64,000 bases of DNA from contig JAHQIY010000003.1 in NCBI GenBank assembly GCA_019054805.1, forward strand, positions 5,332,001-5,396,000, given 5' to 3'. Below, piece by piece: positions 1,856-52,080 of this stretch; the first letter of the stretch is position 1, and every line of letters begins with the position of its first letter. The translations under genes were made by a program, and so were the position numbers. This DNA is from Brachionus manjavacas (taxonomy: Eukaryota > Rotifera > Eurotatoria > Ploima > Brachionidae). Under the pieces are notes generated by a model. The model made no database searches. It saw only the letters and a list, made by a program, of their open reading frames with translations, and was not told where the DNA came from.

Positions 1856-3325
1856 TTATTTTTTAGCTGATAAACTGTGCTCATAAATTTTGTTTTCCAA
1901 ATCATTTAACGTCGACAAAATATCTTTTAAATCATCAGTAAAATTCCTCACAAAATAAAGCTTAAGGGTATCAATAGCATTAATAGCCTCGATTTTTTCA
2001 GTATCCTTAGCTTTGGATTGATCCTCTTCAGTGCCGTTTGCAGGTTCATCCTCAAAAATTTCACAAGTAACCAAATCTTTATCCACGTCAATAAATTCAT
2101 CGAAATTTAATTCCGGATAGATTCGAATAAAATTTTTGTAAATGCATTTTAATTCATTGTGAATACAACCATTATTTTCGGACACAATCTCATCATCACT
2201 GATCCCCTTGGCCTGATAGAACCCACACTGCTTGAAGCAGTCGACAATCAGCTCTGACTTTATCTCGTTATCCCACGAATAGCTCAGCATCTCAATCACA
2301 CTAAATAATTTGATAGCGTCAGAGTCTGGCTTGGTTTCGCCCAAGGCAAACATTTTCCGGCACAACTTCATCCGGTAATTGGCTTTAAAGCACCTAAAAA
2401 CTGCCGTATTCAGCGGGTTCGCGGCATTATTTGACAAATTAAAAATGATTATATTTGAAAATTCAAATTCTTGATCATTTGATGAATTTATAAAAATAAT
2501 TATTCTTCTATTTTCCAGTTTCATTTGATCATTTAAAGCCGAAATAATGTCAAAAAATATTTTACTATTCATCCAAGAATTTGGATCCGAATAGTAGCTT
2601 ACATTTAGTTTGGAAATTTCGACACTATTTTTTGGCCTTTCGTCATTAGACACGATTACCAGGGGCAATTTTTCCCCAACCATACTCACAGCTGTGAATA
2701 TGGTCAGTCTTTCGTGGCTGTCTTGGCCCATCTTACACAGTTTGTCTTTAACATGGTTTGTGGGAACAAGCCGCCAAAAAAGACCGAATTGGTCGGCACA
2801 AAAAATATCTCGTGGATCAAATTCTGAAATCAATTCTTGGTACTTTTGTCCAATGTTTTCTTCAGTAAAACACGTTGCATTTTGGTACGATGTGTCTTCG
2901 GAATTTATTGAAGAATCTGACGCGGAACCTTTTTTCTTGCGGTTACTGAAGTTGGACAGATAGCCATTACTAGCTCGGAATTCATACTGGCCTGACTTTC
3001 TCGCTATTTCAAGAGCCTTTTCTCGCAATGCTCCTGTCTTTACTTGAACGCCATTTTGTTCACAATTTGTTATGAACTGCGTAAGCCCAGTGTCTATATT
3101 TTCGTATTTGGTGGTCTTTAGGGTCTTGCGAAATGGCGAGTCCAATGAGCTAAATTTTCTTAATACTTTATCTTTGTTTTTTATTATCTGGCATATATTT
3201 GAAGAATGTTTTAGGTTGTATTTTTCTTTTATTATTCGGTAGCTTGTTCCTTTTTCCACTTCGTCAAGTATTTGTTTCTTGGTGAATATGTCAATACCTT
3301 GGCGGACCATTTTTTTGTCGGACAT
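1856..3325 (-). CDS. CENP-B/Tigger (pogo superfamily) transposase-derived protein, catalytic site degenerate
   Basis: This is a single-exon 489-residue protein. Residues 10-50 form the psq-type helix-turn-helix (FTKKQILDEVEKGTSYRIIK). Residues 70-130 match the CENP-B-type second DNA-binding helix-turn-helix. From about 160 to 330 there is a DDE-superfamily endonuclease fold. The first catalytic block is kept (IFCADQFGLFWRL, D178). The second, normally LLLDN, reads IIIFINSSN (279-282), and the third, normally QPLDQG, reads NPLNTAVF, so two of the three metal-binding aspartates are gone. The C-terminal third (about 320-489) is acidic and ends in a leucine-rich helix, a possible dimerisation part as in CENP-B. 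The frame is fully open and its GC is well above the flanks, as expected under selection. AATAAA lies about 45 bases after the stop. I infer a domesticated DNA-binding protein; a very recently inactivated transposon copy is the alternative. Confidence 0.8.
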   Translation of the reverse strand: MSDKKMVRQGIDIFTKKQILDEVEKGTSYRIIKEKYNLKHSSNICQIIKNKDKVLRKFSSLDSPFRKTLKTTKYENIDTGLTQFITNCEQNGVQVKTGALREKALEIARKSGQYEFRASNGYLSNFSNRKKKGSASDSSINSEDTSYQNATCFTEENIGQKYQELISEFDPRDIFCADQFGLFWRLVPTNHVKDKLCKMGQDSHERLTIFTAVSMVGEKLPLVIVSNDERPKNSVEISKLNVSYYSDPNSWMNSKIFFDIISALNDQMKLENRRIIIFINSSNDQEFEFSNIIIFNLSNNAANPLNTAVFRCFKANYRMKLCRKMFALGETKPDSDAIKLFSVIEMLSYSWDNEIKSELIVDCFKQCGFYQAKGISDDEIVSENNGCIHNELKCIYKNFIRIYPELNFDEFIDVDKDLVTCEIFEDEPANGTEEDQSKAKDTEKIEAINAIDTLKLYFVRNFTDDLKDILSTLNDLENKIYEHSLSAKK

Positions 3326-6316: not shown

Positions 6317-9300
6317 TTATCGGTCCAGAATTGCATTTAAACTTGGCTCGGATAACGAATGCTTCATAAATGAGTTTGGATTGTTGCATAGAGCACCCAC
6401 ACCGCTGCCTAAAACTCCTGTATTATTCACGTCACAACATTTAGTCGTATTCGATTCTCTACTCAGTTTTTTCTTAACATTTTCTTTGAAATTTTTATGT
6501 TCATTGCGATTAGATGGTGTGAGCGTTTTTATTCCAAATGGAAGTCTGCTGCCAGTATTGTTAGCATTATGAGTGGTGAAATTGTTATGTGATGCCGATG
6601 TGGGTATACTAGTATTTGAACTTGAAGATGTGAACCAAGATTTGATATTGAATCTTTTTGATATATTTTTTAGATTAAAACCACTGTGAGAATGGTGTCC
6701 GGCGTTGTGGTGCTGATTGTTGCCAGTATGATAAAAGTTTGTAGAACTTTTTGGTATATTTGAATGTAAATTGTTAATGACCGGTTTAGGTATGTGATTT
6801 CGGTTGTTGTGTAGTCTTGAATCGCTATTTTTTGGCCGATTTATTACCGGCGTCTGAACCAGTGGTGGCTTCTGAGCTTGAGTTGTCGGAGGGGTAGGAG
6901 CTTTTTCTTGGCTTGGCGGGGTCTGTGCAAGTTGATTTCTATTTGTAATTGTCTCATTGCTGTGCGTTTGTAGTTTAAGATCCAGTTGGTTAAATTGGAG
7001 TAAAAGTTTGTGAAAATAACTAAAGTACTCTTCATTTTCAAATACGGAAATGTTGGATAGATTTGTCACATTGAAGTTCGCTTCATTCACAGTGGTATTA
7101 GGTGAGTGGAAGTTAGTTGTTGAGACAGATAGTGATGAAGTTGAAGTTGAAGACGATGTGGACACTTGCATGAACTCAGTACCCATGCCGCTATCACCAC
7201 TGCTGTTGTTTCCTATGCCTTTTGCGACCGATTGCTTGAAATCGTAGAAATTTTTCAACACATTTTTGTCACGGTTTACATGTTCGAACCAATTTGCCAA
7301 TTGTTTATGACTAAAAATAATAAAATTTTAAACATTTTTAAGTGAATTGAATAAAAAATCCTTCGACCATTTTTGCTATTTTCAGGGAAAACAACTTAGA
7401 CTCTTTAATGAGTTAAGAAAAAAAACAGTACTTTAAAATGATAAAAAATTCCTTTAAAACTAAACTAAGGTTAATATCTTTTAATTTTGTTTACATCGAA
7501 ACATAATGTAACAAGCTTTTACATTTGAATTTCTCCTAAAAAAAATAATCTAACTTGGTTTAAATTTAATTATTGAAATTCAAAATGCTTTTTGTTTTTT
7601 TTTCTAATTCCTTTGAAAGATTTGTTAAAGAGAGAGATTTGACTGTAAAATCTCCCAAAGAAAATTTGAATTATAATGAATAATTTTTGATTAAAATTTT
7701 ATTTCTAAGATTTATTTTTTAAAAAATTGCTGATTTAAAAATTCTTTCACTTTTAAATAAAATGTAGCTTAAAAAAATAATGTTTTTAACACTCAAAAGA
7801 CCGGCTATTTTTGACAAAAATTTGTTTAAATGTTGCATTCATTCCATTAAATCCTGTAAAATGAAAAGCAGAATATTTAAAGGAACGTTACCTAGGCTTT
7901 TAAAAAAAATAGAACATGTAAATATGATTGATCGTTAACTAAAAATTAAATTTGAATTTTTGAAAAAGTGTCAAATTGACACCGTCGGTCCTTTGAGTGT
8001 TAAATTTAATTTCTTTCAAAAGGATGCCAGCGAGTTGGAAAAAAACTTTTTAATTTTTTAAAGAAGAATTTATAATTGTAAAAATAAATTTTTTAATGCA
8101 TCTTTCAATTTAATTCTACATTATCTGGCAAATATTTGACATAGAAAACAAATGGAATCTGCTCTAGAACAAAATCTCTTTACACCTTTCTAATATATGC
8201 ATTTTTCTCTGTCAAGAAATGCTTTTTTCATTTAGGCAAATTGCCTCAAATTGTGATGTAGAAGATTAACTTGATGCAGTCATTTCTGTGTCAGATGGCT
8301 TAAAAGACGAGTTCCTTTTCTAATATCCTGTTGAACAGAATGGAGGAGATGATTATTTTAAATTGCCACATATACCATATGTTTCGCACTCTTAAAATTA
8401 GTTCTAAAGAGAAAAGAATACCGGCGAGTTGAAAAAAAACTTGGGACTTTTTGTTACATGGTTATAGTGTCTCGAAGATGAATACCTTAAAAACCCAACT
8501 AATTTAGATATCACCTTTGGAATTCTCTATCCAAGCACACAAAAAATATTTTAATTTTTTTTTTATTTTATTAAATGAAAGCTCTACTTTAAAAATATTT
8601 ATTCTTTTTTTTCATGCTTGGCCTTTTTTATTACATTTTTATAAATTTTAAAAAAGGAATATTTCATATAATAAAGGCTAATTTTATAATTTTGTGGCAA
8701 TGCGAACCCAATCCAGTTTAACACAAAAAGTATTTTAATCTAAAAGAGCATTCAATTTTACAATAGAATCAAAAAAAAAATCTACTGGTACGAGGAGCCA
8801 AAAAAAATTAACCCTCAAAAAAAAAAAGAAAAAATTCTGAGTTTTTTAAATTTTCAAGTTAGTTATTCCTTATAAATTCTTCATAATTTTTTTTTTCTAA
8901 GTATTTTTCAACTTGCCAGCATTCTTTTTTTATAAACTTGAATATTATGAAACAAAAAATTAACTTCTGACTCAAAGTTTTAATCAATTTTTGGCCAAAA
9001 AGGCTAACAGTATTTTTTTTAATTAACAAAAATTCTTACTTTAGTAAATATATAACAAACAATTGAAATTTGAATTTGAGACTCATTAGCATTACCATAA
9101 AATGGTGTTTTCTTCTCAACTGAGATGTATTGATCGAATTGTCGATCAAATAAGTTTGATTAGTGCTTGATGCAAATTTGTTTATTTCTTGGAACATGGT
9201 CAAGTAGGCCTCTTTGGGTAAGAAGAAATAACATTTGGGCGCTGGACTATCGGTCTTAATTGGCTGTCTCTGCAACTCCAAATTTGCGTTCATGGTACAT

Positions 9301-22239: not shown

Positions 22240-22524
22240 TTAATATTCTCTGTATGATAAATTCTCAGATCCACAATACACAAAAGTCCATGTACTGTTG
22301 TTTATTTGGCATGAACCTGTCCAGCGACTTTCACATATACCAAGCACTTTCAAACTGTATTTATCCATGACCAGTGCGACTTGAGCGCAACTTGATGCTT
22401 CGCACATGGTTCTGACATACCAGATTCCGACTATGCATCTTTGTTTCGCAAAAAATAGCCCACTTTTTTGCTGACAACCTCCATCTATGGTTTTCAGTTT
22501 CAGGACTGACTTTGTATCAGCCAT
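22240..22524 (-). pseudogene. RTE-type endonuclease-reverse transcriptase, N-terminal fragment
   Basis: A 94-codon open piece contains VGIWYVRTMCEAS, then AQVALVMDKYSLKVLGICES followed by RWTGS. This is the start of the apurinic-endonuclease domain of RTE-like non-LTR elements (family form GTWNVRTMY..GKL.Q...EM.RY.LDILG.SE.RWTG). The catalytic Glu in the ES/TRWTG block is kept. It stops before the rest of the endonuclease and all of the reverse transcriptase, so it is a dead fragment. Confidence 0.7.
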
Positions 22525-22599
22525 TGGAACGCATCCGCTATCTCATTGGGCTTCTTTCTGAGTTCTTGATTCTTTGTAACCACTTTATATACTTAGGTG

Positions 22600-22650: not shown

Positions 22651-25190
22651 AAATTATAGTCTTCACATGAAAAAATCTTAAAATCCCTTAAATTTTTTCT
22701 CAAGACATTTAAGCTAGACCAATTAATCAAACTTAACATAAATTTATCACTTTTTAATTCTAAATAAATATTATTGCTTCGGAATTTTTTTAATTCCATT
22801 ATACATTTTGAATTAGCTAATTTTGGCACATTTTACAGTGGCTCATTTACACTGAAATAGGTGTTTGTCAAACAAAATTTTTTGAATAATTAAATAAAAT
22901 TTTTAAATTCTAAAAAAAAATCAGTAAATTTAGATATTTTCAAAGTTTTTTCCAAAAGGTAAAACTTTTCGTTTTGAATCCAGCTAAAAGAACATAAAAT
23001 GAGCTTTAATTTTTTAATAGAAAAGAATGATTTCAAATTGGTCTCAAAGTCTTAAAAAATGACACTTAAAAAATTAATTTATGATTAGTTTAAAAAAAAT
23101 TGAGAGATTTTTAATTTAAATAATTAATGTCATAAATTAACATTCACTATGCTAAACTTTAGTAAGAATTTTTTATGCTCGAAAATTTCAGTATGGAATA
23201 AAATTAGTAATTTTTTATTTGTGGTCCTGTCGAAAATTTCTTCTAATCATCGATGATGAGGATCGATATTTGCTACTCTAAAATGAGATGCCAAATATTA
23301 AAACTCCTTTAAAAAAATAGCAAAGAGCTAAATTTAAAAATATTTTTAATTTGCATAGTCTTAGCTGACAAGAGTTTTATTTACAACTTAAAATTGCATT
23401 CAATCTTGAGATTAAATTGCCGCCATTGCCTTCGGTTAGACGAAAACAATGGCTCTTATCAAAATTGAATCAACTATTTTATCTAAACAACTAGGTTAAA
23501 CCAAGAAAACTTTTAATCAATCACCTAGTGTCCTAAAGCAATATTTTTATTATCAAATTTTACATTTTTTTCAAAAAAAAAACCTGCTTTTAAGTCCAAA
23601 ATAAACTTCTTTTTATGAATAAACAAAGACATAAATCAAATTAAAAAACTAGACTTTCGAGTGAATTATTTACAATATTAATAAATAACTAAGTGAATTG
23701 AGAATAATTGACTAGATCTTTTATGTTCGTAATCTTTAGAGTGACCCAAAACCTGATATGAAATAATAAAGCTTTTCCTATGCTCGCATTAATTTCTATT
23801 ACGGCTAATCACGTTTCATCAATTGACTGTCATGATAAAATTCGAATAAAAATTAAATTATTATAATTTTATTTTTCAAATAAATTTGTAAATTAAGAAG
23901 AGATATTTAATTGTACCAAATTTGAAAAAAATTGGGACTGCTGGGTCTTGAGTGTGCAAGACCTCGTAGTGCTAATTAAATTAGGCTCTAAGACAAAACT
24001 CTGAGCTTGATTAAAATCACGTGCGAATAACTCAATTACAAGCACTAAATTTGTCTTATAATTTAAATTTTAAATCAATAAAGATGCGCATGTCTCATTC
24101 AGAAATGATCCTTCTACCTATAATGAACCAAAATACCTTAATTAATTTTTTATTTTTTGATTGTGTTTTTTTTAATTGTTTTAATTTTTGAAAAAAAATA
24201 CCTCGACACTGATTACTGCTAATTTCAATGAAAACGATTTCGAAAAGACTCGATTTAAAAAAAAAAACAATACTTGAAAATTAAAATAAGATTTTGAGAA
24301 GTTACTAATATAATTATTTATTTCAAATTTATTAGTTAGGATGAATAATTATTGCAATTATTGGAATATAAAATGAAAAGGTAAAAATAATAAAAAAAAA
24401 TTGATCACAGATAATTCGCAATGAAAATTTAAAAGCCTAAAATTAAAAAAAAATTTGATTTTAAAATTTTTCTTCAATTCAGATATAACAGATCTGATAA
24501 AAAAAAATTAATTTGAATAGAAGCTTGTACCTTAGGACCAGTTGCTTGTATATTTTTTTTGATAATATATTCGAATTCCATATATTAAAACTAAATTTAT
24601 TTAATGCTATTATAAATATCAATTTAAGTAAAATCAACTGATAGACACCTACGCTTCATGGGTGATTTTATTCGAATAATTACCGAGTTACTCATGAATG
24701 AAACAAAATTACACAAAAAATTAAATTGAGATAATTTAATGAAGTCTTCAATTTGTTTTAATTTTTAATTGTCAAAGCCAAAAAGAAGATTTTATTTAGC
24801 ATCTTAGTTTATATATTGAACAAACAAAATTAATGAATTAAATTAATGTAAAAAGTTTTCATTTCTATTTTCAGCACATTAGCGAATCCTTTTGAATGAA
24901 AATAAAACATTTTTTCTTATTATATTTGAATTAGAAAATAGAAATTAAAAACCAAAAAATGAATGATAAGTTTAAAATAAAGTAATGATCATCTTTGTTA
25001 CTTTGTTTAAAGAATTGATATTTTTCAACCGGTTTTTCATCTTTTAAAATTATTTTAACTTTCTTTTGTTAATTTATATTCATGTGTTTCGTAGTTTATT
25101 TTTATATTTACAATTCATTCTTTTTCTTTATATTCATGTTAGAGCTCTTGCTATTCAAAAAAAATCAAAAATAATTCTCTTTAGAATGAA
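22651..25190. other. AT-rich intergenic DNA
   Basis: No gene or named repeat was recognised. It lies upstream of the peptide precursor gene. Confidence 0.4.
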
Positions 25191-25192
25191 AC

Positions 25193-25200
25193 AGCTATAA
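25193..25200 (+). promoter_or_regulatory. possible TATA box of the peptide precursor gene
   Basis: CTATAAAT lies about 75 bases before the ATG, leaving room for a start site and a short 5' UTR. In such AT-rich DNA a chance match is possible. Confidence 0.3.
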
Positions 25201-25269
25201 ATTTGCTTGCTATTAAATTTTTTAAAATTACATAATTTTGATTCTCGATCGGCTTAGCGTTTTACAAGG

Positions 25270-25674
25270 ATGAAGGTTTTGTTTGCTTTATCAGCTTTAA
25301 TTTTGACTGTCTGCTGTGGAGTAATGACTGGCCGTGAAGAAATGACTATGTCACATAAAATGATGCCAAAGAGCAGAATGATGAATAAGCGAATGAGTAA
25401 AGATTTTATGATGAACAAGAGAGATATAGAACCAGCTCGAATGGACATTTTTGAAGAAAAAAAATCTCTCAATGAAGTTTCTCAGCCTGTGAAAAGACAC
25501 AGCCACGAGGCTTCATTTTTGTCCAAAAGAAATATTATGGAGTCGGCTCAAAAAACAAGATCTGGAAAACGCCATAGCCATGAAGCTTTATTTTTAGCCA
25601 AAAGAGAATCAATGGGAAATTTCAAGCCAGAAATTATGAAAAGACACAGCCATGAGGTCTTTTTCTTAGCATAA
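25270..25674 (+). CDS. candidate neuropeptide precursor with three HSHExxFLx repeats
   Basis: A single-exon 134-residue protein. Residues 1-20 are a signal peptide (MKVLFALSALILTVCC). The rest is hydrophilic and cut by dibasic KR sites at 40-41, 50-51, 75-76, 86-87, 100-101, 111-112 and 124-125. Three near-identical nonapeptides sit exactly between them: HSHEASFLS (77-85), HSHEALFLA (102-110) and HSHEVFFLA (126-134). The last ends at the stop codon. There is no Gly before the KR sites, so the peptides would be free acids. A Met-rich N-terminal part (SRMMNKR, KDFMMNKR) could give further short peptides. AATAAA occurs at about 25810. Signal peptide plus repeated KR-flanked units is the standard form of a prohormone handled by convertases in the secretory pathway. 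I do not recognise the HSHExxFL family. A secreted non-peptide-hormone product cannot be ruled out. Confidence 0.75.
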   Translation: MKVLFALSALILTVCCGVMTGREEMTMSHKMMPKSRMMNKRMSKDFMMNKRDIEPARMDIFEEKKSLNEVSQPVKRHSHEASFLSKRNIMESAQKTRSGKRHSHEALFLAKRESMGNFKPEIMKRHSHEVFFLA

Positions 25675-28600
25675 AGATATGCTATTTAATTTTTTTGAGA
25701 CAAATAATTTAAATTAAAAAGCTCTTGATTTTTTTATAAAATATTACTTTAAATCAATTTTGTAAAAAAAAACTTTTTTAACTTTTTCTAATATTTTTCT
25801 AATTTTGCAATAAACCCTGAAAATGTGTGGCATTTTAAATAATAACTTGTTTTTTCATTGAATAATCAAGGATTAAGCAGAAAGGTTAATTGCGAGCCTT
25901 CTAAAATTTATCTAATAAAACTATCGTGTCTTGGAAAAAAATCTTTTTACTAAAAATCTTATTTTTTGAAAAAAATTCACCTTAGAACTAAAGTTTAAAT
26001 TATAAAAGCGTAAAAGATTTTTGAAGATACATTCTTAAATAAATGATTGGCATGTGTTTGAATGTTTCGATGATAATTTAACATCTGTTTGGTTTTTAAG
26101 CTAAAATATCTTTCCAAAAACCATCATTAAACCAGAATTTAGTTAAGTACATGCGCTTCATTTAGATATTTTTATTGCCACTAAATTAACTTAAAATTTT
26201 ATAATCAAACTAAAACTAAATTACAATATTAACTGTTTGCATTTTATATAACGCAATCTAGACCAACTCGATTAGAAATTCAAATATTTACACGATTTAA
26301 ATCAAGTGCATGATGTCAATTTAATCGATTTTGTGATTAAATGTTCAGTTTTTAAAATAAACTGAAGAACTTGATTTTATTTTTTTAATTTAATTTTAAT
26401 CTTTTAAAAATAATTTTTCATTAATAATTTCAAATAAAAATAGCTACAATGGCTTAGCATCAAGCTAAAATTTACCTTAATGTTAAATGTTTTATGATCA
26501 CATATTTACACAAATGAACACAAAAAATACTTTAATTAAAAATTTATGTGTAACCAAAAATTAAATATTAACTAATGGATTAATCTACGCAAATGTTAAT
26601 TTTTGGCAAAATTTTTTCTATTAAAATCATAAACATGGTTTGAATTATGAGTTCTGATTTTATGATATTAAATATGAATTGGTCACTAAACCATAAAAAA
26701 ATTAAAGCTTAATTTAAATAACTCAATTCGCGTGTCGGCAAATTTGATCGCTAAACTAATTACTAAAATCCATTTAAAACTATTAATCAGAAAATCTCGA
26801 AAATTTATCTTATCTTTAAAAATCAGAAATGAATATTTTTAGACAGTTAAGGCCAAAATAAAAACAAAATTTTATCTATTAATCATCATATGCTTTAGAG
26901 TCTAAAGTAATAACTGCCTTTGAGCTAGTTATGGTGACGGATATATCTTATGGTTGTGAAAATAATCCAGTGCAAGCCATTTTGATTTACTTTTTCAGTG
27001 TGTCCAAGTAATTTTTTTTCACCCTAATAATGCTTTAAAAAGTTTTAATTTATTATTTGTCTATAATTAAGATTTTAAAAAATCTGATAGATTAGATTGA
27101 ACAGCTCAAGTACCTTAAAACAATCGTTATTTAAAAAAGTGCATCAGAGCTTCCATAATTTGCTCTATATTCCAATTTTAAATTGAAAAATTCATTCATT
27201 TGGAACAATTGAGTCTATTGACACACAAAAAGATAAAATATTTAGATCCGAGAATGTGTAAGAAAATGGAGAAAATTTAATTTGTCGAATTAGCACTCCA
27301 TTAGACTGGGTGATCCTAAAACCTTTAAAAAAATCTAAGTTTTTTATTATCAATGGGTTGTATTACGATTAATACCAGCCACCAAGTGTTCCAGACAAAA
27401 TCTTGAAAATCAATCAATACACAGCCCAAATTTTTTTTTAATTTAGCTTTATTCATCAGTGAATACTTTACTTTTTACAAACAAAAATTTAATCAATTTT
27501 CTCATACAAAGAAAGGATAGATTCCACTAAAAGAAACAAAATGCAAGATAAACTTCAGTTATTTGGCATTCATTGACACATAGATTACTTTTTTATTACT
27601 ATCAACAGACAATATGCTTAACATTTAAAATGTATGCTGACAGCAAGAAGTTTTGTATATTCAGCTGACTTTATTAGTTGGTTTTATAAAAAAAATTTAT
27701 TCAGACAAGAATTAAGTAAAAATTGCTAAATTTAGATTAATTTTTAAATTCATCAAAAAATAAAACTTAATGAATTTTATAATTTAACAACAGTTGGTAA
27801 AAATAGAAAAAAAACATATCTATAATCATGTTAATTTTTATGCTAGACTAAAAAGATTTATTATAAGTTAAATCACACAACTATTTACAATACCAAAGCA
27901 ATTAATTTAGAAATTCTGATGCAAAATCTGGTTTTTGGATCATAATTGCTACTTTTGCTCGAATTTCAACTGGTCGGTCAGAGATAGGATTTTTTTTAGT
28001 ATAATTTTACAGTTCTTAGCAAAAGTACACAAATCTTTTCAAAATTATTTTATTATTAGATAATCTATTTTATTAGTTTGGAGACAAAATGAATAAGCGA
28101 TTAAGGTTAAATACTTTGACTGAAGTCTCAATAAAAAAAAACCTGTTGCTTAGTTTAATTGAATATTTTTGCCCAAAGATCCCAGTTTAGACCAAAATAT
28201 GCGCCTAATCTTGGGATGAATGCTTGGACGAGATAGATTGCATAATCTCTGGACAAATTGAAATTTTTTACATCAAATTTCGATTTGTCAAGATAGAAAC
28301 AAAATCAATCCATAGGTAATCTAAGAACAAATATTGCTTTTAAGCTATTGTTGGTTAAAAGTTGCTTTTTGTTCAAAAAGAGAACGGTTCTAAAATTGTT
28401 CATTAATCCACTCATAAATTTTAAAATTAAATCTCTAGTAAAAATGGTTCAATAAAACAATTAAATTTTTTTTTACTAGTTAGGTCACCTAGTGTGGTAT
28501 TTACTTAGCTAAAATAGATTTAAAAAAAAATCAAATTCTTAATAAAAAGAACGCTTAAAAATTTAAAACATAAAAATTAGCTTTTTCTCGACAAAAACTC

Positions 28601-31600
28601 TCTATTTACAATTTGACGAGCTGATGAGAGCTTTGATTGCTCTTCACTATTTTGTTTATATTTCTAATATTAAAAAAATTTAATTCATTCAAACAAAGCT
28701 AATACTTGGGTTTAATGTTGTGGTAATTTCCAAAGAAGTATTGACTTAGAGGCATTACTCTATCTAAAAGAAACATAAACCTTAAAAAAGCATAAATTAT
28801 TTTTATGTTTTCTTATTTTCGACTTCTTTGTTTTTAATTAAAATATTTTTATCAAAATTAAAAATCTGCTTTCAATTGAGCGAATATTTTCTTCCTATTT
28901 TGACGTAATGAATAATTTTGGCCCATCCAAGTTTAAGTTGCTAAAGCTCTCTCTCTCTCGAGTTTATTTTTAACTTCGAATCGCTGAAAGTTATTATAAC
29001 AATTTTAAAATCTGAATCCTTGTATCTTTTTTTTTTGACGAGTCTTTTAAAGTCTAGGAGAAACAATAAAAAAAATTTATTCAAGAAAAAGGTCATTCTT
29101 AGAGAAGCTTTAAGGCTGAAAATATATTTATGGAATAATTTGGCTTTATCCAGCTTAAAATTTATGTTAATTAAAAATTTAACTTTTTTCCACGGTTTCG
29201 CGCAATGAATCCTCACTTTTTTTCTCAGAATTTTAAAAAATATCCAAAAATTTGGATTTTTATACCAAAATAATTTTTTAAATTACTATAAAAATCATTA
29301 TCTACCAAATTGTTCATGTACCAAGATTAGTTAATAATTAGAATATCAATCTCGGATTAAATTAAATATTAATAATTAAAAACTTCAAAAACGACATATA
29401 AAAAAAAATGTATTTTATTAAATTAGAATTTAAGAAATAAGCTAAAATTGTGTAAATGGATTTTAATGGATTGCTTGAGTGTTTTTTTTATTAGAATTTA
29501 AAAATATACCTAATAAAAATAAAAATTTTTGCAAAATATACAGAAAAAATAGATAATATTCAGAAAATTTTTTAAAAAATTGAGATGAAAATTATAATGT
29601 CAGAATTGTTAATTATTTTAAGCCTAAAATATAGTTTATAAATACCACCTAACTTTAAGTCTAAATGCTACGAACTTAATTTTCTAGGGCTAAAATTGAA
29701 AAAAAAATTGTTAAGAAACTTAATTAAATTAAAAGAGGCTGGAACTTTGGTTTCTACCCAAAACAGTCTAAAAACTAATTATAAGATCTCCTAAAAAATT
29801 TTTTTCAAGTACTAGACGAGTTAATGAAGCACAAAAATAAATGAACTTATTAATTAAATATTTATTTTTACAAAAAAAATTTAAATATTAATTTCCATTT
29901 AAAATGAAATTTTAGCACTAAATAAACATTTAAGAAAAAAAATTAAAAACAATTAAATTAATTGACTTTTGGTATTTTTGTTTAATTGAATAAAAAAAAT
30001 ATGGTTTTAGGGTGATAAGGATTTATAAGGTAAAAATCTTACCCATTCTATTTGAAAATATTTTATACAATTAAAAATCAATTTGTTCGCTGTAATATTT
30101 AATTTTTAGTCCAAATTATTTAGTTATCACAGAATAATTAAATAAATTTCATCCTCCATTTAAGTTTTTCTAAGCATAATTAAATAAATTTTAATCAATA
30201 CAATCTATTTGAAAACTTAATCGAAAATCAGATAAAAATTTTAAACGAAAGCAAAATTAAGAATATACAACGATTCCTTCCAAGTTATATAATATCATTT
30301 GCTTATCTTTGGTAAAAGAATGATTAAAACAAGTTTATTTCACGTAGATAAAAAAAAATTCGCATATTTTAATTATGTTCAATAAGTCTATTAAAGGCAT
30401 AAAAAAATTGCAGTTTAATCTATACTGTTGTATTCATCAAAACAAATAAAAATATTTAAAATGAATTAAATTTTAACTATAAAAAAGTCGAGAATTTTTT
30501 TTTAATTTTTAATTAAACTAGATCAAAAGCCATGAAAAGTTCCACAAAATTTATTAACACAATATTGAGAAGCAAAATAAAAATAAAATATAAGCTTAAT
30601 TTGGTTGTATTTTTTAAATCTCTTTCAATTTTAATTTTTAGTGGTTTAATAAACTCGACCTAATTCCTTATAATTTACCAGAAGTTAATTCAAAATTTAT
30701 AATGAGTGAAATTGATGATTTATCTGAAATATTTTGAGTGAGGAAGATTGTTGAGCTTTTTTTATAACGAGTCTATTCCATCTATTTAGGTGCTATGATA
30801 ATTACTACAATACAACTAACTAGAAGGAATCATCAATGTAAATATATTTTATTTAGCACAAAAATAAAACTATCTAAGTATTTGGTAAAATTGATTACTT
30901 CCTATCTAACTGAATAAATTGATTTTTGTTCTATTTTATAAACCGATCAAAAGAAAAATTAATAATTTTTCTCTCAATAACCATCAAAATTCATCATGTA
31001 GCTTTCAAACCACAAAGAAAGTAGGGTCTTATATTCAAAACATTTGCTTCAAATAAAATCAATTTGAATCAGAAAAATTGATTTACTAACAGGAAGTTTA
31101 ATGCATAGTAAAAATCATAAATATTTATTTGAAGATTTTTTTATTAGGCCTAATTGGAAAAAAATTAAAGAAAAATCTATTTTGAAATTTGGTTGTTGTT
31201 GTTCTGATTCATTTTAAATAATTTGATCTAAATAGCTCGTAAATTTCATTCGGTCCGATACAAAGAAAATTCAAAATCATAAAGTTGAAAACTTGATTAC
31301 AGTGATTATTATCAAGAAGTAATTTAATACGTTTGATTAGCATTTCAGACTAAATTATTATGATAGAAAATTCGCTTGAAGGCACATTAACATCAAAAGT
31401 TATCCTAAAACTAAAGTTAACCCTGGGACTAATTATCTAGTGAATAAAAAAAATTATTTTTAAGAAATTTCGATATAAAATTAATAATAAAAAATTTAAT
31501 AATTTTTAACATCTAAATGAAAAAAGCTATTTTTTTTTAGATTTTTTTAAATCTTATCAAAAATGATCATAGAATTAAATCTAATCTAACTATCTAATTT

Positions 31601-32202
31601 AATACTAGATATTCATTGTGAAAAAAGACTTGAATTTCTTCTAATTTAGAGCAACAAAAAAAATAAATAAAAATCCCAAATCATAAAAACTTAAGTGTAG
31701 AAAATATCAGTGGTTTTATTTTTCATATTTTAAAAATTTTTGTTAATTTATTTAAAAAAATAATAATTTCTTTTAACTTCCTTTTAATAAACTGGTTATA
31801 ATTGACCAAGTGGAGTAAAATCGTCAAATTATGGCATTTTTATTCACACCTATTCACTTATATCTAATAAATATATCAAATTTTGCTTGAACGAATTTAA
31901 ATAGACCTTTTCTACCATATTCTTTGGATACACTGTCACAGTCATTTACGACTCTGTTTGTGATGCAGTTGTAATGTGTTGACTGATCCTTTACTAACCT
32001 GGCGTCACTTATAAAATTGACAGCTATTAAATTAAAATTTAACTAATTTTCCTTTTTATTCACATTAAAAACCAAGTCATTCAAATAAGATAAATTTCTC
32101 AAATTGTAAAAAAAAATCTGCAGTTTACAAAACAAAATAAAAATTAGAATAAAAATTTTTTGCATTTTTTCTTCTAAATTTATTTATTTTGAATCGAACA
32201 CC
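25675..32202. other. 6.5 kb of AT-rich intergenic DNA
   Basis: I see no coding stretch, RNA gene or clear repeat on either strand. The short open frames at 28941-29216 and 29020-29208 mirror each other, are of low complexity and are rejected. The last 300 bases (about 31900-32200) are slightly GC-richer and may hold the HAUS3 promoter. Confidence 0.45.
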
Positions 32203-34260
32203 ATGGAAAGCAAATCCGAAAAATTGTGCAATTTATTAAAAAACTGTAATTATCCATCGAAACTTAATCCGAATAATTTGAACTATTTGTTTGAATTTCC
32301 GGATTTAAAGCCTTTTTTTGAAAAATTTTTTAGCCAAATCAATGAATCGTGCTATCACAGTAGAGATAAGCTGAATGCTTTTGGTAACAAAGCGGCCAAA
32401 GGACATGTCATTTACGACTTGAAAAAGCTACAAGAAATGCACAAGCTATTGAATTTAGAACAAGATAATCGGCTCAAAATGAATAGTTCCGATTCATCGG
32501 ACGAGTTCGATATTGAAAATTGTACTGATCCAGCAGTTTTGAAGAAAAAAATCCAAATGTTGGAACGAGAAGTTCGGCTAAGACGCCGCAGAGAGCAATT
32601 CAACTCGTTCTGTGACAAAAAATTTACTGAAAATTTAAAAGAGCTCCGGGTGAGAGAAGAAGCTGAGTGTCGAATAAACGCCAAGCTTGATGAAAAAGAG
32701 ACTTTCATCAAAAATTCTCTCAAAACTTCAAATCAATCTTTGAATAAATCTTTTATAGAACTAAAAGCCAAGCTGGGCGATGAGGACCGACTACAAGAAC
32801 TGGGCCCTAATCGGGACAGTGAAAAAATTGGAAATTATTTGGTCAAGGAGAACTTGTTTTTAAATTTGGTCAAAAAGTTGATGAATTTGGAAATTCACTG
32901 CACGGACTTGAACAATTTGGAGTCCAAGCTCGACTCAGACTCGAATGGACCAGTCGAGCCCACCGAGTCCGAGCTCCTTGAGCAGAAACAATTTCAATTA
33001 ATTATGAAAAAAAAATTTCCCAAAGTAATGGACAAATGGATACAGATGAAAATAGCTCATTGTTCATCAAGTGTAGTCTTAGAAGAGATAAGCCGAATAG
33101 ACAACGAGTTCGATCATTTTTTTGTCTACACTGAGGATGAATTGAGACAAAATGAAAATTTGGTTGGCGACTTGGAGAGAAAATTGCTCGAGAACGAACA
33201 AGAAAGGGACGCTGCGGCAGAAAAATTGCAAGACTTGATCAGACTAATGCCAAATTTGATCAATCAATTGGCTTATCTCAAAATGGTTCATTTGGCTTGT
33301 CTAGACTTGGAGAATAAAGAAATTGACTTGAACCTGTTTTTTAACAAACAGGAAAAAATTTTGAAATTACTCACTTCCCAAAGAACTCGCATCGAGTTCA
33401 TATCTCATCTGCAAGCATCAAAATTGAACCATCTGGAAAACTTGAAGCATTTGTTCGGCGAATTGCTCGAGTCTACCAACAACCCGGCAAACAAGCCCTT
33501 GGCACAAGCAAACTCCATTCTTTCCACTTCAATTGTTGGTGGTCCGTTTAGCAGCATGATGCAAGGAAACAAAAATTTGAGCATAAACCAATATACCAAG
33601 CCGAGTTTGTTGTCATCAACGTTTAACTCAAGCATCACAAACCGCTTCATATCTTCGCCAAGTAAACAGCTTAGTTCCAAATTGAACCCTGTGAGTGACC
33701 AACAGACCGACTCAAATTCGATGCTTCTGCATTTGTTGAACCAATTTTTGATCACTGTATTGACCAAATTTGATCAGAGCAAAAATTTTGGTGGCGAAAA
33801 TTTCGAGTTCAAAAATCCTATTTCTATCAATTTTGATGATAATGTAGAAAATTTTATTTCATTGATGAATTTTGTAAATAGTGTGTACAAAAACAAGGTT
33901 CTTAACTCACAAAAGCAGTACAAACACTTTTACTATGTTATTTTAAAGTCAATCGAGTATTTGTATGAAAAAGACGACTCAACTAGTGAGTCCAAGTTCA
34001 AAAGTGCTTTTAGCCATAATTTGAGCAAGATAAATGCCAAAATGAACAAACGCTTGGAAGACCAAATGATCAAGTTAAACGAGCAGAGCAGGGACTTGCA
34101 AAATTTGTTTGCATCACAAGTCTACCAGAGTTATAGCCATCTAAAACAGCAATTGTCAACAAACAAGCTGATTAATATAAGACGCAATTTCTTTGTACAC
34201 TTTTATACGAATCCAAAGCAAATAAAAATTTTAATGGAACAATTGAATTCAGTTTATTAA
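32203..34260 (+). CDS. HAUS3: HAUS augmin-like complex subunit 3
   Basis: An intronless 685-residue protein. HAUS3 is a subunit of augmin, which recruits gamma-tubulin to spindle microtubules so that new microtubules branch from old ones. The N-terminus has the family pattern: LLKNCNYPSKLNPNNLNYLF, then FFEKFFSQINESCYHSRDKL. The C-terminal block LSTNKLINIRRNFFVHFYTN matches the vertebrate ending (NKLHQMEREFYVYF). Between them are long charged coiled-coil stretches (about residues 115-190, 290-350 and 385-420) and a Ser/Asn-rich linker near 430-500. Its length compares with about 600 in humans, the excess being the linker. ATG at 32203 has a good context (ACCATGG). AATAAA is at 34282-34287. 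It lies about 1 kb upstream of TTLL5 on the same strand, with its own poly(A) signal. Confidence 0.85.
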   Translation: MESKSEKLCNLLKNCNYPSKLNPNNLNYLFEFPDLKPFFEKFFSQINESCYHSRDKLNAFGNKAAKGHVIYDLKKLQEMHKLLNLEQDNRLKMNSSDSSDEFDIENCTDPAVLKKKIQMLEREVRLRRRREQFNSFCDKKFTENLKELRVREEAECRINAKLDEKETFIKNSLKTSNQSLNKSFIELKAKLGDEDRLQELGPNRDSEKIGNYLVKENLFLNLVKKLMNLEIHCTDLNNLESKLDSDSNGPVEPTESELLEQKQFQLIMKKKFPKVMDKWIQMKIAHCSSSVVLEEISRIDNEFDHFFVYTEDELRQNENLVGDLERKLLENEQERDAAAEKLQDLIRLMPNLINQLAYLKMVHLACLDLENKEIDLNLFFNKQEKILKLLTSQRTRIEFISHLQASKLNHLENLKHLFGELLESTNNPANKPLAQANSILSTSIVGGPFSSMMQGNKNLSINQYTKPSLLSSTFNSSITNRFISSPSKQLSSKLNPVSDQQTDSNSMLLHLLNQFLITVLTKFDQSKNFGGENFEFKNPISINFDDNVENFISLMNFVNSVYKNKVLNSQKQYKHFYYVILKSIEYLYEKDDSTSESKFKSAFSHNLSKINAKMNKRLEDQMIKLNEQSRDLQNLFASQVYQSYSHLKQQLSTNKLINIRRNFFVHFYTNPKQIKILMEQLNSVY

Positions 34261-35619: not shown

Positions 35620-38600
35620 ATGTACAATTCAAACGAAGACCCGGCAAACGAATCTGCAAGCTTGCTTTCTCGGTCAAAATCTTACGACACAAAATTGAAT
35701 CTAGCTTCGGAGGGCTCGGTGTACACGGGCATGTTCTCAATGTTTGATCCGGACAGTTTGAAAAAAGCAGATGAACCAGCCAAGATAACAATCACGTCTT
35801 GTGCGCCAAATCCCAAAGAAAGCAGATCTAGACTGAGCTACTATGGTGAGAACAGACCCAGCTCCCAAGCCTTAAACTCCCAAACCAGTATTAACAATTC
35901 GGATAGCAAAATTAATTCAAATAAAAGTGAAAATCAGGATTTTAACAACCGGAATTTGAGTGTAATTTGGCCGAATGGAAAAAATAGTCTGCCTTTGATT
36001 TTGTTCCGTGCCAAAGTGCTGCGTAAAAATTTTTGGGAGTGCAAAAAAGTCGGAGGTAAGAGTTGATGGAAATTTTGGAGAAATATATAACTTTTTTTTT
36101 TGTTGATCAGAAACTTATAGATTGTCTTTTAAATTTTTGCATGGAGAAAGAAAGCTGGTAAAATCATTACTGGAGGGACATGGTTTTCGAGAAGTATTTG
36201 AATAGATCATTTTGAGAGTATTTCTTAATTTTAAATTTTAGGTTCATCCGAACAGTTCTGAGTTCAATATAATTTGGAGTGGAAATAATTTAAAAAGCTA
36301 TTTGTTCAGGGGACTGCAAGAAAATCAAAAAGTAAATCACTTTCCTCGGTCCTGCGAACTGACCAGAAAAGACCGTTTGTACAAAAATATTCAACGAATG
36401 CAAAAAGAAAAGGTTCTTTATTCTCAATTAATTTAATTTTTTTTAATTAAAAAAAAATACTAAGGGTCAAAAAGCCTTTAACATTGTTCCGACAACTTTT
36501 GTCTTGCCTTTTGAAATAGATGATTTTTATGGTAATAAAAAATTTTATTTCCGGATTAAAATTTGACAACTAGGACAAGTCAAAAAATTTTTATGTCTTT
36601 ATTTTTTTAATTTATTTAACGACTTCGGCATTTTGCTGACTGGGATTAAAAAATTTTAATTTTGAATTTGCTAAGCTCTTGCTGTGTTTTAGACACTTTA
36701 TTAAAAACAAAGCCGTATTCAAAATTTTTCTTTCTTTAAGCAACATTTTACAAAGAGAAAGGAATTTGGATTGTGAAGCCAGCATGCTTGTCCCGAGGCC
36801 GTGGAATTTACCTCATAAGTCATGTAAACAATTTTGTCAATAAGCTTAAAGAAAAATACTTTTTGCTCAGAGTTTTTTCTATTGTTTCTAAATTTTTTTG
36901 TTTATTTAGCCTGATCAAATACCTCTAGACGATAATTTAGTTGTGAGTAGATATCTGTCAAATCCTCTTCTAATCGAAGGATTCAAATTCGACTTGAGAC
37001 TTTACGTGGCTGTCACGTCTTTTGATCCTCTTGTTTTTTATTTGTACGAAGAAGGTCTTACACGCTTTGCCACAGTTAAATATGACCAGAATGTGCGCAA
37101 CATTCGCAACACATGCATGCACTTGACCAACTACAGCTTGAACAAAAAAAATGACAAATATGTCAAGTGTAATGATCCGGACATAGAAAACTATGGAAAT
37201 AAATGGTCTATGAGTGCTTTTTTGAGGTACCTTAATTCTCTTGGGAAGGACACTTTTTCGCTTATGATGAACATCGAGGAAGTTTTAATCAAAACTCTGC
37301 TCGCTGTTGAGAGTCCAATGGCCAGTGCAGCAAGAATGTTCATGCCACATCGAGGAAATTGTTTTGGTAATTAAATTTAAAAAAATGAAAAAAAAATTAA
37401 GTTTTATTTCATAAAAGAATTGTTTGGTTTTGATATTTTGATTGATGAAAAATTTAAACCTTGGGTCCTTGAAGTAAATCTGTCACCTTCTCTAGACTGT
37501 GACGCCTTGTTAGACATAAGAATCAAATCGAACATGCTCGCTGATTTATTTACACTATCAGGAGTTTTTTGTCAAAATCCATTCACTTTTTCCAGTCGCT
37601 ATAAACAAAAAGATTCAAAATCAAAAGCTGATAATAAAATTAAAGTCCGACCTCATTCAGCCAACATGAGTAGTCAAGGAGCCAAATCGGTTTCAAATAA
37701 GCCCATCAACACAGATTCTTTGTATAATGGACTAAGCCTAAACGAACAAAGTATACTTAAGGTAATAGTTGAAGAGAATCAACGAGCTAATGGATGGATT
37801 AGGATATTTCCTTCATCAGACACTTGGGAATTTTATTCACAATATTTGGAAACTAGATCTACTTCGTACAATATGATGCTTCATAAGAGGCTCTTTCCAA
37901 AAAGGTAAATTTAATTTTAATTAAGTTATTTTTGGCTTGTTTTTTTTTATAAATTCTGAAAATTTTTAAATTTTTTTTAAACCTTAAATTAAAATTAAAA
38001 TGAATTTTTGCGTAGATTAACAAAAAAATGATTCTTTTTTTAAGAATTAATCAGCCAAAGATTTTTTGGGCTTTTTAAAAATTAATTAGCTTTTATCGTT
38101 AATTAACTCCAATTAAATAAAAAAAATTTCAAGTTAATTATTTGTTCTTTTAAAATGTTCAATCCAAAGTAAAAGTTTAAAAGCAAGCCTTTCAAAATTA
38201 TAAGAAAACTTAATAATTAGATTATTTTTCAAATGCAGTAAGGTACCTTTAGTACTTATTTTGACAAGAGTTTTTTTAATTTTTAATTTAATATTTTAAG
38301 CACCTTATTGTCTATGTTTATTTTTACCTTTTTTCTAAGTTAAATTGAGTGATTAAGTTTATTTACTTAGTTAAGAATTTGATGTTTTGAGTATGATTTT
38401 TTTTCTAGTTTCAATGACAAAAACTTCCAAATCTTCTTATTGATAAAATGCATTGAAAAATTATTTTTTACTCGTTAACTCTGAAAATAATTTTATTCGG
38501 TATTGCTGTTTTTTGGAAAACGTCAAATAAGGGATCAATATATTGCTAAAAAAAAATGAAAAAACACCTACAAAAAGAGTTCAAATCTTTATTTAGAGTA

Positions 38601-50607: not shown

Positions 50608-52080
50608 CAGGAGCTTATCTCTTAGAGAAGGTAAGGTCCCGAAAGCTTGAAAAACTTCGAACATTACTATGATTCAAAAAAATGCCTCTAATTTACAAGA
50701 TCCTTTAAATTATAGACCAACAAGTATAACGAGTTGTCTAGGAAAGTTACTGGAACGAAAAGTCTATTCAAGATTATACAATTTTTTGGAACAAAATTCA
50801 CTCCTTATCCAGGAGCAATCTGAATTTAGAAAACACCGGCGAGCATCAGATAATCTATTTTTCTTAATTAAAAAAATGCAGAATCATTTAATAGAAAAAA
50901 AGAGTTTATGGCCTGTTTTTTGATATTTCTGAAGCCTTTGATAGGGTTTGGCATGAAGGTTTACTTTGTAAATTTATTAAAATGAATCCACCTCATTACT
51001 AGACTAACTGGATTAGATCCTTTTTAGACACTAGGATATTTAAGGTAAATGTGAATGATCACTTGAGCTAAGAATATCAAATAACTGCAGGTGTTCATCA
51101 AGGCTCAGTAATTAGTCCTCTTTTATTTAGTATATATATTATTGGCATCCCCAAAAGAAACAAAACAAATAATGAATACTCTCTGCTTTTTGCAGATGAT
51201 CTAGTTACATTCTTCATTTATAACAAAAAAGGGAACCTTGAAAATAAGATAAATAAATACACCAACGAACTAGAACAATGGCTTATTAAATGGAAAATGA
51301 AGATATCAGTTGAAAAGTCGTGTTCAGTAGTCTTCTCTAGGTACAAAAAAGAGAGTGATAATCTAAACTTAAAATTTTATGGAAACAGAATAGTGAGCCA
51401 AATAGAAATCAAGTTTCTTGGTATAAACTTTGATTCTAAATTAAATTTTATTATATTAGTGGACGAAATTAAAGAACGCTGGAACAAAAGGGTAAATATT
51501 ATTAGGATATTGTCAAACAAAAAATGGGGTCTCAATCAAAACACACTAGGAAATTTATATAAATCTTTAGTCGGATCGATTTTAGACTATTCTTTTCCTT
51601 GCTTGAATTCATTTTCAGAAAAAAATATCATAAAACTACAAGCAATTCAGAATACAGCAGTAAGATCTATCCTTAAGTTAAAATATGATACTCCCTCCAA
51701 CATCGTGCATCATGAAGCTTTTAATAAACTTAAATTACCAACAGTCTAGAATCGGCTTTTTGAGTTAAGTGAGAGAAATGTTGGGACAGGACTGAGTCAT
51801 TCTATTCCATGGGTTGTAAGAATGGTGGAGGAATACAAAGAAGGTTTCGAATCGAGATATATTGAATACCCAACTCCATTGTGTAATTGCTACCTTACTA
51901 TTTCCTCATTTTTTCCTGAAACCTGAACTATGTAAACATGTGCCACATGTAACAATCTATATCTTTTTAACTTTCATTTTTTTTTAGCTTATTTTATTAA
52001 CTTTAATTTTTTTTTGATTTTTTTTAATCTATTCTGAAGGTGCCCTAGCTCGGTACAGAAAACAAATAAATAAAAAAAAA
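50608..52080 (+). pseudogene. jockey/CR1-like non-LTR retrotransposon, 5'-truncated, best-preserved copy
   Basis: It starts within the region before the palm (NYRPTSITSCLGKLLERKVY) and continues through the fingers, FFDISEAFDRVWHEG, AGVHQGSVISPLLFSIYI, the catalytic FADD block (SLLFADDLVTFF), the thumb (LNFIILVDEIKERWNKRV) and the C-terminal NKKWGLNQNTLGNLYKSLVG. A frameshift at about 50922 and stops near 51002, 51070 and 51750 make it inactive. The 3' UTR ends with TCTGAAGGTGCCCTAGCTCG (52032) and an AAATAAATAAAA tail. Endonuclease and ORF1 are missing. Related pieces in this window are at 14282, 43665, 46060, 52850, 60040 and 61203. Confidence 0.85.

Follow-up and report, generated by a model that had tools for sequence, protein, structure and literature searches.

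What is encoded by a short open reading frame (ORF) of the rotifer Brachionus manjavacas that specifies three nearly identical nonapeptides, each preceded by Lys-Arg (KR)? The locus was analyzed in a window of 64,000 nucleotides from contig JAHQIY010000003.1, and all positions refer to this window. A previous reading, made from the letters of the DNA alone, had placed an unrecognized peptide precursor at positions 25270 to 25674, and a single ORF of the forward strand has exactly these ends.

An uninterrupted reading frame of 134 codons

25270 to 25674, forward strand: precursor ORF, 134 residues (ORF scan; upstream in-frame stop codon at 25255)
25196 to 25201, forward strand: TATAAA, candidate core promoter, 74 bases 5' of the ATG (motif only)
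25809 to 25814, forward strand: AATAAA followed by a GT-rich stretch, candidate polyadenylation signal (motif only)

The ORF extends without interruption from ATG to TAA. Position 25270 is its first possible Met, since an in-frame stop codon is located upstream at position 25255, and the start context contains an A at position -3. This stop codon and this start context make the reading of the precursor independent of splicing. In the interval from 24280 to 28941, just two stop-to-stop ORFs reach 60 residues, the precursor and a 75-residue antisense frame (25254 to 25481), which overlaps the first half of the precursor ORF. Twenty 64-kb sequences simulated with a first-order model contained no ATG-initiated ORF as long as the precursor. 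The density of KR sites was the highest among the 113 stop-to-stop ORFs of at least 60 residues in the window. Shuffling of the residues located after the leader, with the stop sign kept among the shuffled letters, generated at least seven KR sites once in 200,000 trials and any tetrapeptide present three times in 126 of 200,000. A degenerate KR-HSHE pattern, written after the peptides had been seen, gave three matches in the window versus none in 100 shuffles.

With six long window ORFs, including the transposase, as the training set, the in-frame coding score was 0.244 for the precursor versus a maximum of 0.005 in 2,000 chunks of the stretch from 28000 to 32000, which was assumed to be noncoding. 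This score barely separated the precursor frame from the other two frames of the same strand (0.200 and 0.205), and the third-position GC content was lower in the precursor ORF (0.358) than in the training set (0.419). Discrimination of the frame by the coding score and third-position GC content is weak.

If the TATAAA and AATAAA motifs are used, the transcript would comprise about 600 bases, with untranslated regions (UTRs) of roughly 45 and 155 bases and A+T contents of 66% and 83%, the ends being guessed from the motifs. An ATTAAA motif at position 25713 is nearer to the ORF than AATAAA. For Brachionus plicatilis transcripts, the available text of the EST paper gives UTR A+T contents of 68.7% and 83.4% and mean lengths of 52 (SD 35) and 94 (SD 74.5) bases, with which the UTR composition proposed here appears compatible. 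A potential spliced-leader acceptor (TTAG, 25254 to 25257) was not built on, the same text reporting no trans-spliced leader in that monogonont.

Elsewhere in the window, a tubulin tyrosine ligase-like gene has exons at 36740 to 37905 on the forward strand (best E value of 5e-43 for Pfam TTL; best PDB match TTLL7, E value of 2.8e-30), and a 685-residue ORF (32203 to 34260, forward strand) is weakly similar to HAUS augmin-like subunit 3 (E value of 0.0004) and has no Pfam match. These neighbors point to a eukaryote and are consistent with an animal. A 489-residue ORF on the reverse strand (1856 to 3325) encodes a transposase with DDE_1 and HTH_Tnp_Tc5 domains, presumably from a pogo/Tigger-type element; since this ORF is uninterrupted, the element is possibly recent. 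Two ORFs, at 22240 to 22542 (reverse strand) and 51297 to 51749 (forward strand), resemble, by eye, fragments of LINE-type retrotransposons and had no Pfam match. In the DNA searched, no Rfam family reached the gathering score and no tRNA was detected by ARAGORN.

Anatomy of the precursor

25270 to 25332, forward strand: predicted signal peptide, residues 1 to about 21, approximate cleavage position (hydropathy; helix 2 to 21)
25333 to 25419, forward strand: Met-rich N-terminal propeptide segment, residues 22 to 50, 9 Met in 29 residues (residue count)
25387 to 25392, forward strand: KR site 1
25417 to 25422, forward strand: KR site 2
25423 to 25491, forward strand: spacer peptide, 23 residues
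25492 to 25497, forward strand: KR site 3, preceding nonapeptide 1
25498 to 25524, forward strand: nonapeptide 1, HSHEASFLS
25525 to 25530, forward strand: KR site 4
25531 to 25566, forward strand: spacer NIMESAQKTRSG, followed by KR, which would yield an amidated 11-mer (amidation rule from general knowledge)
25567 to 25572, forward strand: KR site 5, preceding nonapeptide 2
25573 to 25599, forward strand: nonapeptide 2, HSHEALFLA
25600 to 25605, forward strand: KR site 6
25606 to 25638, forward strand: spacer ESMGNFKPEIM
25639 to 25644, forward strand: KR site 7, preceding nonapeptide 3
25645 to 25671, forward strand: nonapeptide 3, HSHEVFFLA, ending at the stop codon

Two analyses indicate that the precursor begins with a leader, as the sequence-only reading had claimed. 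The best mean hydropathy over 11 residues was 2.62 at the start of the protein versus at most 0.25 from residue 23 onward, and a single-sequence fold model predicted a helix at residues 2 to 21, with pLDDT values of 81 to 83 for the blocks of the leader. Outside the leader, 10-residue blocks had pLDDT values of 46 to 63 in this model, which also placed helices at residues 79 to 95 and 104 to 114 with low confidence. Low fold confidence in this region would be compatible with an unstructured prohormone and says little.

The count of seven KR sites made previously was correct, these sites starting at residues 40, 50, 75, 86, 100, 111, and 124, and one additional dibasic site (KK) is present at residue 64. 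Cutting at the seven KR sites yields eight pieces. An N-terminal signal peptide and dibasic sites around short peptides are generic attributes of prohormones, and the precursor displays both, the former according to hydropathy and the predicted helix, the latter with all three nonapeptides located after a KR site and two of them before one.

Met accounts for 13 of the 113 residues located after the leader versus 2.1% in eight other ORFs of the window (P = 8e-7), and His for 7 of the 113 (P = 0.009 against the same ORFs), both tests having been chosen post hoc. Within the propeptide, the Met-rich stretch (25333 to 25422) includes MMNKR twice. Nonapeptides 1 and 2 are separated by a spacer (25531 to 25572) that ends with Gly-Lys-Arg and would give NIMESAQKTRS-NH2; this predicted amidated 11-mer is possibly a second bioactive peptide. 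The computed [M+H]+ values are m/z 1014.464, 1024.521, and 1086.537 for the nonapeptides and 1263.647 for the amidated spacer.

Evidence for selection on the three nonapeptides

The three nonapeptides directly follow KR sites; copies 1 and 2 also directly precede such a site, and the third copy is bounded at its C terminus by the stop codon instead of KR. The three copies and the HSHExxFLx motif were found as initially described, except that the variable positions are 5 (A/A/V), 6 (S/L/F), and 9 (S/A/A) rather than 6, 7, and 9. The copies span 27 nucleotide columns, of which 11 are variable, including 8 at third codon positions (hypergeometric P of about 0.0006). Pairwise comparisons of the copies revealed 4 to 5.5 synonymous versus 2 to 3.5 nonsynonymous differences, corresponding to pS values of 0.77 to 1.10, which are saturated and based on only about 5 synonymous sites, versus pN values of 0.09 to 0.16. 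Nonsynonymous changes are confined to codons 5, 6, and 9. Restriction of the test to the six constant codons gave P = 0.0007, with 5 of 5 variable columns located at third positions; this result was disregarded because of its circularity, the codons having been picked for their constant residues.

When the copies were compared in 9-base blocks, similarity was concentrated on the peptides: the blocks starting 6 bases ahead of the copy and reaching 3 bases beyond its ninth codon had 4 to 9 matches, versus 1 to 5 in six blocks upstream and 4 to 6 in two blocks downstream, the contrast on the downstream side being slight. Conservation of the mature peptide between unconserved spacers, another generic attribute of prohormones, is observed here among three copies of one precursor. 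Because of the third-position bias of the variable columns, the copies look like old duplicates in which the HSHE..FL residues are held by selection. This bias and the excess of synonymous over nonsynonymous differences support the selection on the mature peptides that had been proposed from their constant frame.

A probable secreted prohormone, most likely a neuropeptide precursor

Prohormones enter the secretory pathway by means of their leader and are then cleaved behind KR by a convertase; the basic residues left at the C termini are removed by a carboxypeptidase, and Gly located before a dibasic site leads to C-terminal amidation. Repeated, nearly identical short peptides bounded by KR are the classic layout of neuropeptide precursors, and the usual meaning of such arrays is the corelease of several similar ligands for one receptor. 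The leader, the KR sites, and the KR-bounded copies agree with the prohormone layout recognized previously, and the locus is probably a real, functional peptide prohormone gene of this known kind. We consider it likely that this small gene encodes a secreted prohormone, most likely a neuropeptide precursor, and that the three free-acid nonapeptides act on a receptor. According to this proposal, the leader would direct the precursor into the secretory pathway, in which a prohormone convertase cutting at Lys-Arg and then a carboxypeptidase would release three free-acid nonapeptides of the form HSHE(A/V)xFL(S/A). The spacers would be freed as well, one of them (NIMESAQKTRSG before KR) being amidated. 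The three nearly identical ligands would act together on one receptor, probably G protein coupled, which would contact the HSHE and FL residues and tolerate changes at positions 5, 6, and 9. We infer expression and cleavage of the precursor, a neuronal site, and a receptor for the HSHE peptides. The absence of a C-terminal amide, which is common in bioactive peptides, from all three nonapeptides counts against the neuropeptide assignment.

The same anatomy would be found in any processed secretory peptide, and the abundance of Met and His, unusual in comparison to the eight other ORFs according to the post hoc tests, could also belong to a secreted precursor of exocrine, epithelial, or gland type, with nonapeptides acting outside the nervous system, for example as defense, mucus, or mating peptides. 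We regard such a function as unlikely, since the repeated KR-bounded organization is the one generally encountered in neuropeptide precursors and the nonapeptides are, by eye, neither cationic nor Cys rich, unlike many defense peptides.

A potential copper-binding site at the N terminus

The metal binding envisaged earlier for the His-x-His-Glu start is supported at the level of the primary structure, and the motif is more specific than had been claimed, since a free N terminus and His at position 3 define an ATCUN site. Provided that KR cleavage occurs, all three copies have this free N terminus and His-3. In the available text of two papers (PMC8389909, PMC9117721), ATCUN is described as a Cu(II)/Ni(II) site with these two properties; the first (PMC8389909) gives neurokinin B and neuromedin C as ATCUN neuropeptides, and Ctr1 combines ATCUN with a Met motif according to the second (PMC9117721). 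The nonapeptides may handle copper, a role compatible with a prohormone: Cu(II) or Ni(II) would be bound at H-S-H, and Cu(I) would be held in the secretory pathway by the Met-rich propeptide segment, with 9 Met in residues 22 to 50. The metal state may then control the activity of the peptide, or the peptide may carry the metal. The presence of His-3 in every copy once KR is cleaved, the two named neuropeptides, and the precedent of Ctr1 speak for this role. However, the three copies derive from one event by descent, so that His-3 counts only once; the Met-rich segment contains, by eye, no exact Ctr1-like MxMxxM but MTM and three MM pairs; and positions 4, 7, and 8 are equally conserved, although a metal site alone would not need them. 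A copper-handling role is accordingly given little credence. We attach the same low likelihood to its extended form, in which a lineage-specific animal peptide system would have ligands that bind copper by design, H-S-H nonapeptides being released from a Met-rich precursor and the signal depending on copper or carrying it. If this were true, the constant N-terminal ATCUN site would tie peptide signaling to copper in a small animal. The AN peptides, considered below for their precursor organization, are reportedly the peptides of a Cu(II) "cocktail" paper.

Searches for relatives and comparison with known peptide families

No Pfam family was above its curated cutoff for the precursor. The only family listed at E values up to 1, Neur_chan_memb (E value of 0.037), scored 14.7 bits, below the cutoff of 28.1, and two NCBIfam families (E values of 0.14 and 0.74) were also below their cutoffs. 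Two ribosomal L24 chains matched in the PDB at E values of 0.86 to 0.95 were rejected. HSHEALF, HSHEVFF, HSHEASF, and KRHSHE did not occur in the text of the open-licence PMC papers searched; the text string "rhshea" retrieved unrelated titles on oral inflammation and vascular function and on adolescent drinking. Viral contigs contained no relative of the precursor, whether searched by protein or with a degenerate DNA pattern that requires an AGY serine codon and that TCN-coded relatives escape. The same pattern gave one match among prokaryotic contigs, in a Clostridium MAG, with Lys-Ser before HSHE and then a stop codon; it was taken as a chance match from 181 of the 7,838 bases of the contig, read by eye. 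In six frames of the window, H-x-H-E or basic-basic-H-S-H was found only in the three copies and as HLHE at position 7163, which is not preceded by KR and lies in a frame with nearby stop codons. The HSHE peptide appears to fit no known family in Pfam, NCBIfam, the PDB, or open-licence papers; it can at most be regarded as a candidate new family, for whose novelty the lack of a mention in these papers provides little evidence.

Multicopy spiralian neuropeptide precursors share with the HSHE precursor short related peptides, dibasic boundaries, and unconserved spacers; no motif named in the available text of two studies matches HSHExxFLx, and many of the named families are amidated (PMC8557429, PMC6425005).

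The FL dipeptide near the C terminus of each HSHE copy resembles the F[V/L/I]amide (FLamide) peptides, which terminate in FV, FL, or FI, with Gly and a basic site coming next in the precursor. The HSHE peptides lack this Gly and have one extra residue after FL (S, A, and A at position 9). For the HSHE half, we know of no counterpart in FLamide peptides. According to the text available (PMC8557429), FLamide-like peptides occur ubiquitously in lophotrochozoans, and this ubiquity, the invariance of FL, and the small residue at position 9 could be accounted for by descent from an F[V/L/I]amide-type peptide with secondary loss of the amide, one or two base changes in the ninth codon converting FL-Gly-Lys-Arg to FL-Ala/Ser-Lys-Arg. 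Such an origin is very improbable, as position 9 is not Gly in any of the copies, the HSHE half has no counterpart known to us, and two residues are a weak basis.

The AN peptides, reported from echinoderms only in the available text (PMC4772807, PMC9793003), also combine a multicopy precursor with a constant N-terminal motif, but they start with Ala-Asn instead of the HSHE of all three copies, and 3 of the 6 copies in starfish carry Gly at the C terminus, allowing amidation. The feeding circuit-activating peptide (FCAP) of the bdelloid Rotaria is likewise encoded by a multicopy rotifer precursor, described in the part of the study available as having 8 or 9 copies with a fixed length of 11 residues (PMC6425005); the HSHE precursor has 3 copies of 9 residues, the comparison being based on length and copy number. 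The APGW/AKH precursor of B. plicatilis is described as having an intronless gene, several peptide copies, and KR sites, but it encodes APGWamide and AKH, and HSHE does not appear in the available main text (PMC10730642). Proctolin is also short and nonamidated but usually ends in Thr, according to the available text (PMC8557429), whereas the HSHE peptides end in Ser or Ala.

Finally, a chance ORF or a decayed gene, for which the lack of any transcript or relative seen and the weak frame discrimination by the coding score could be invoked, is extremely unlikely in view of the uninterrupted frame, the absence of ATG-initiated ORFs this long from the 20 simulations, and the third-position pattern of the variable columns.

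In the available text of a survey published in 2021, very few precursors are said to have been identified in the three Rotaria species of an earlier study, a survey of gnathiferan neuropeptides is presented as the next frontier, and Gnathifera are named as needing deeper sampling (PMC8557429). Since the sampling of rotifers is thin, an unassigned peptide is unsurprising. The HSHE precursor provides a concrete peptide from Gnathifera that can be checked by its exact masses and its motif.
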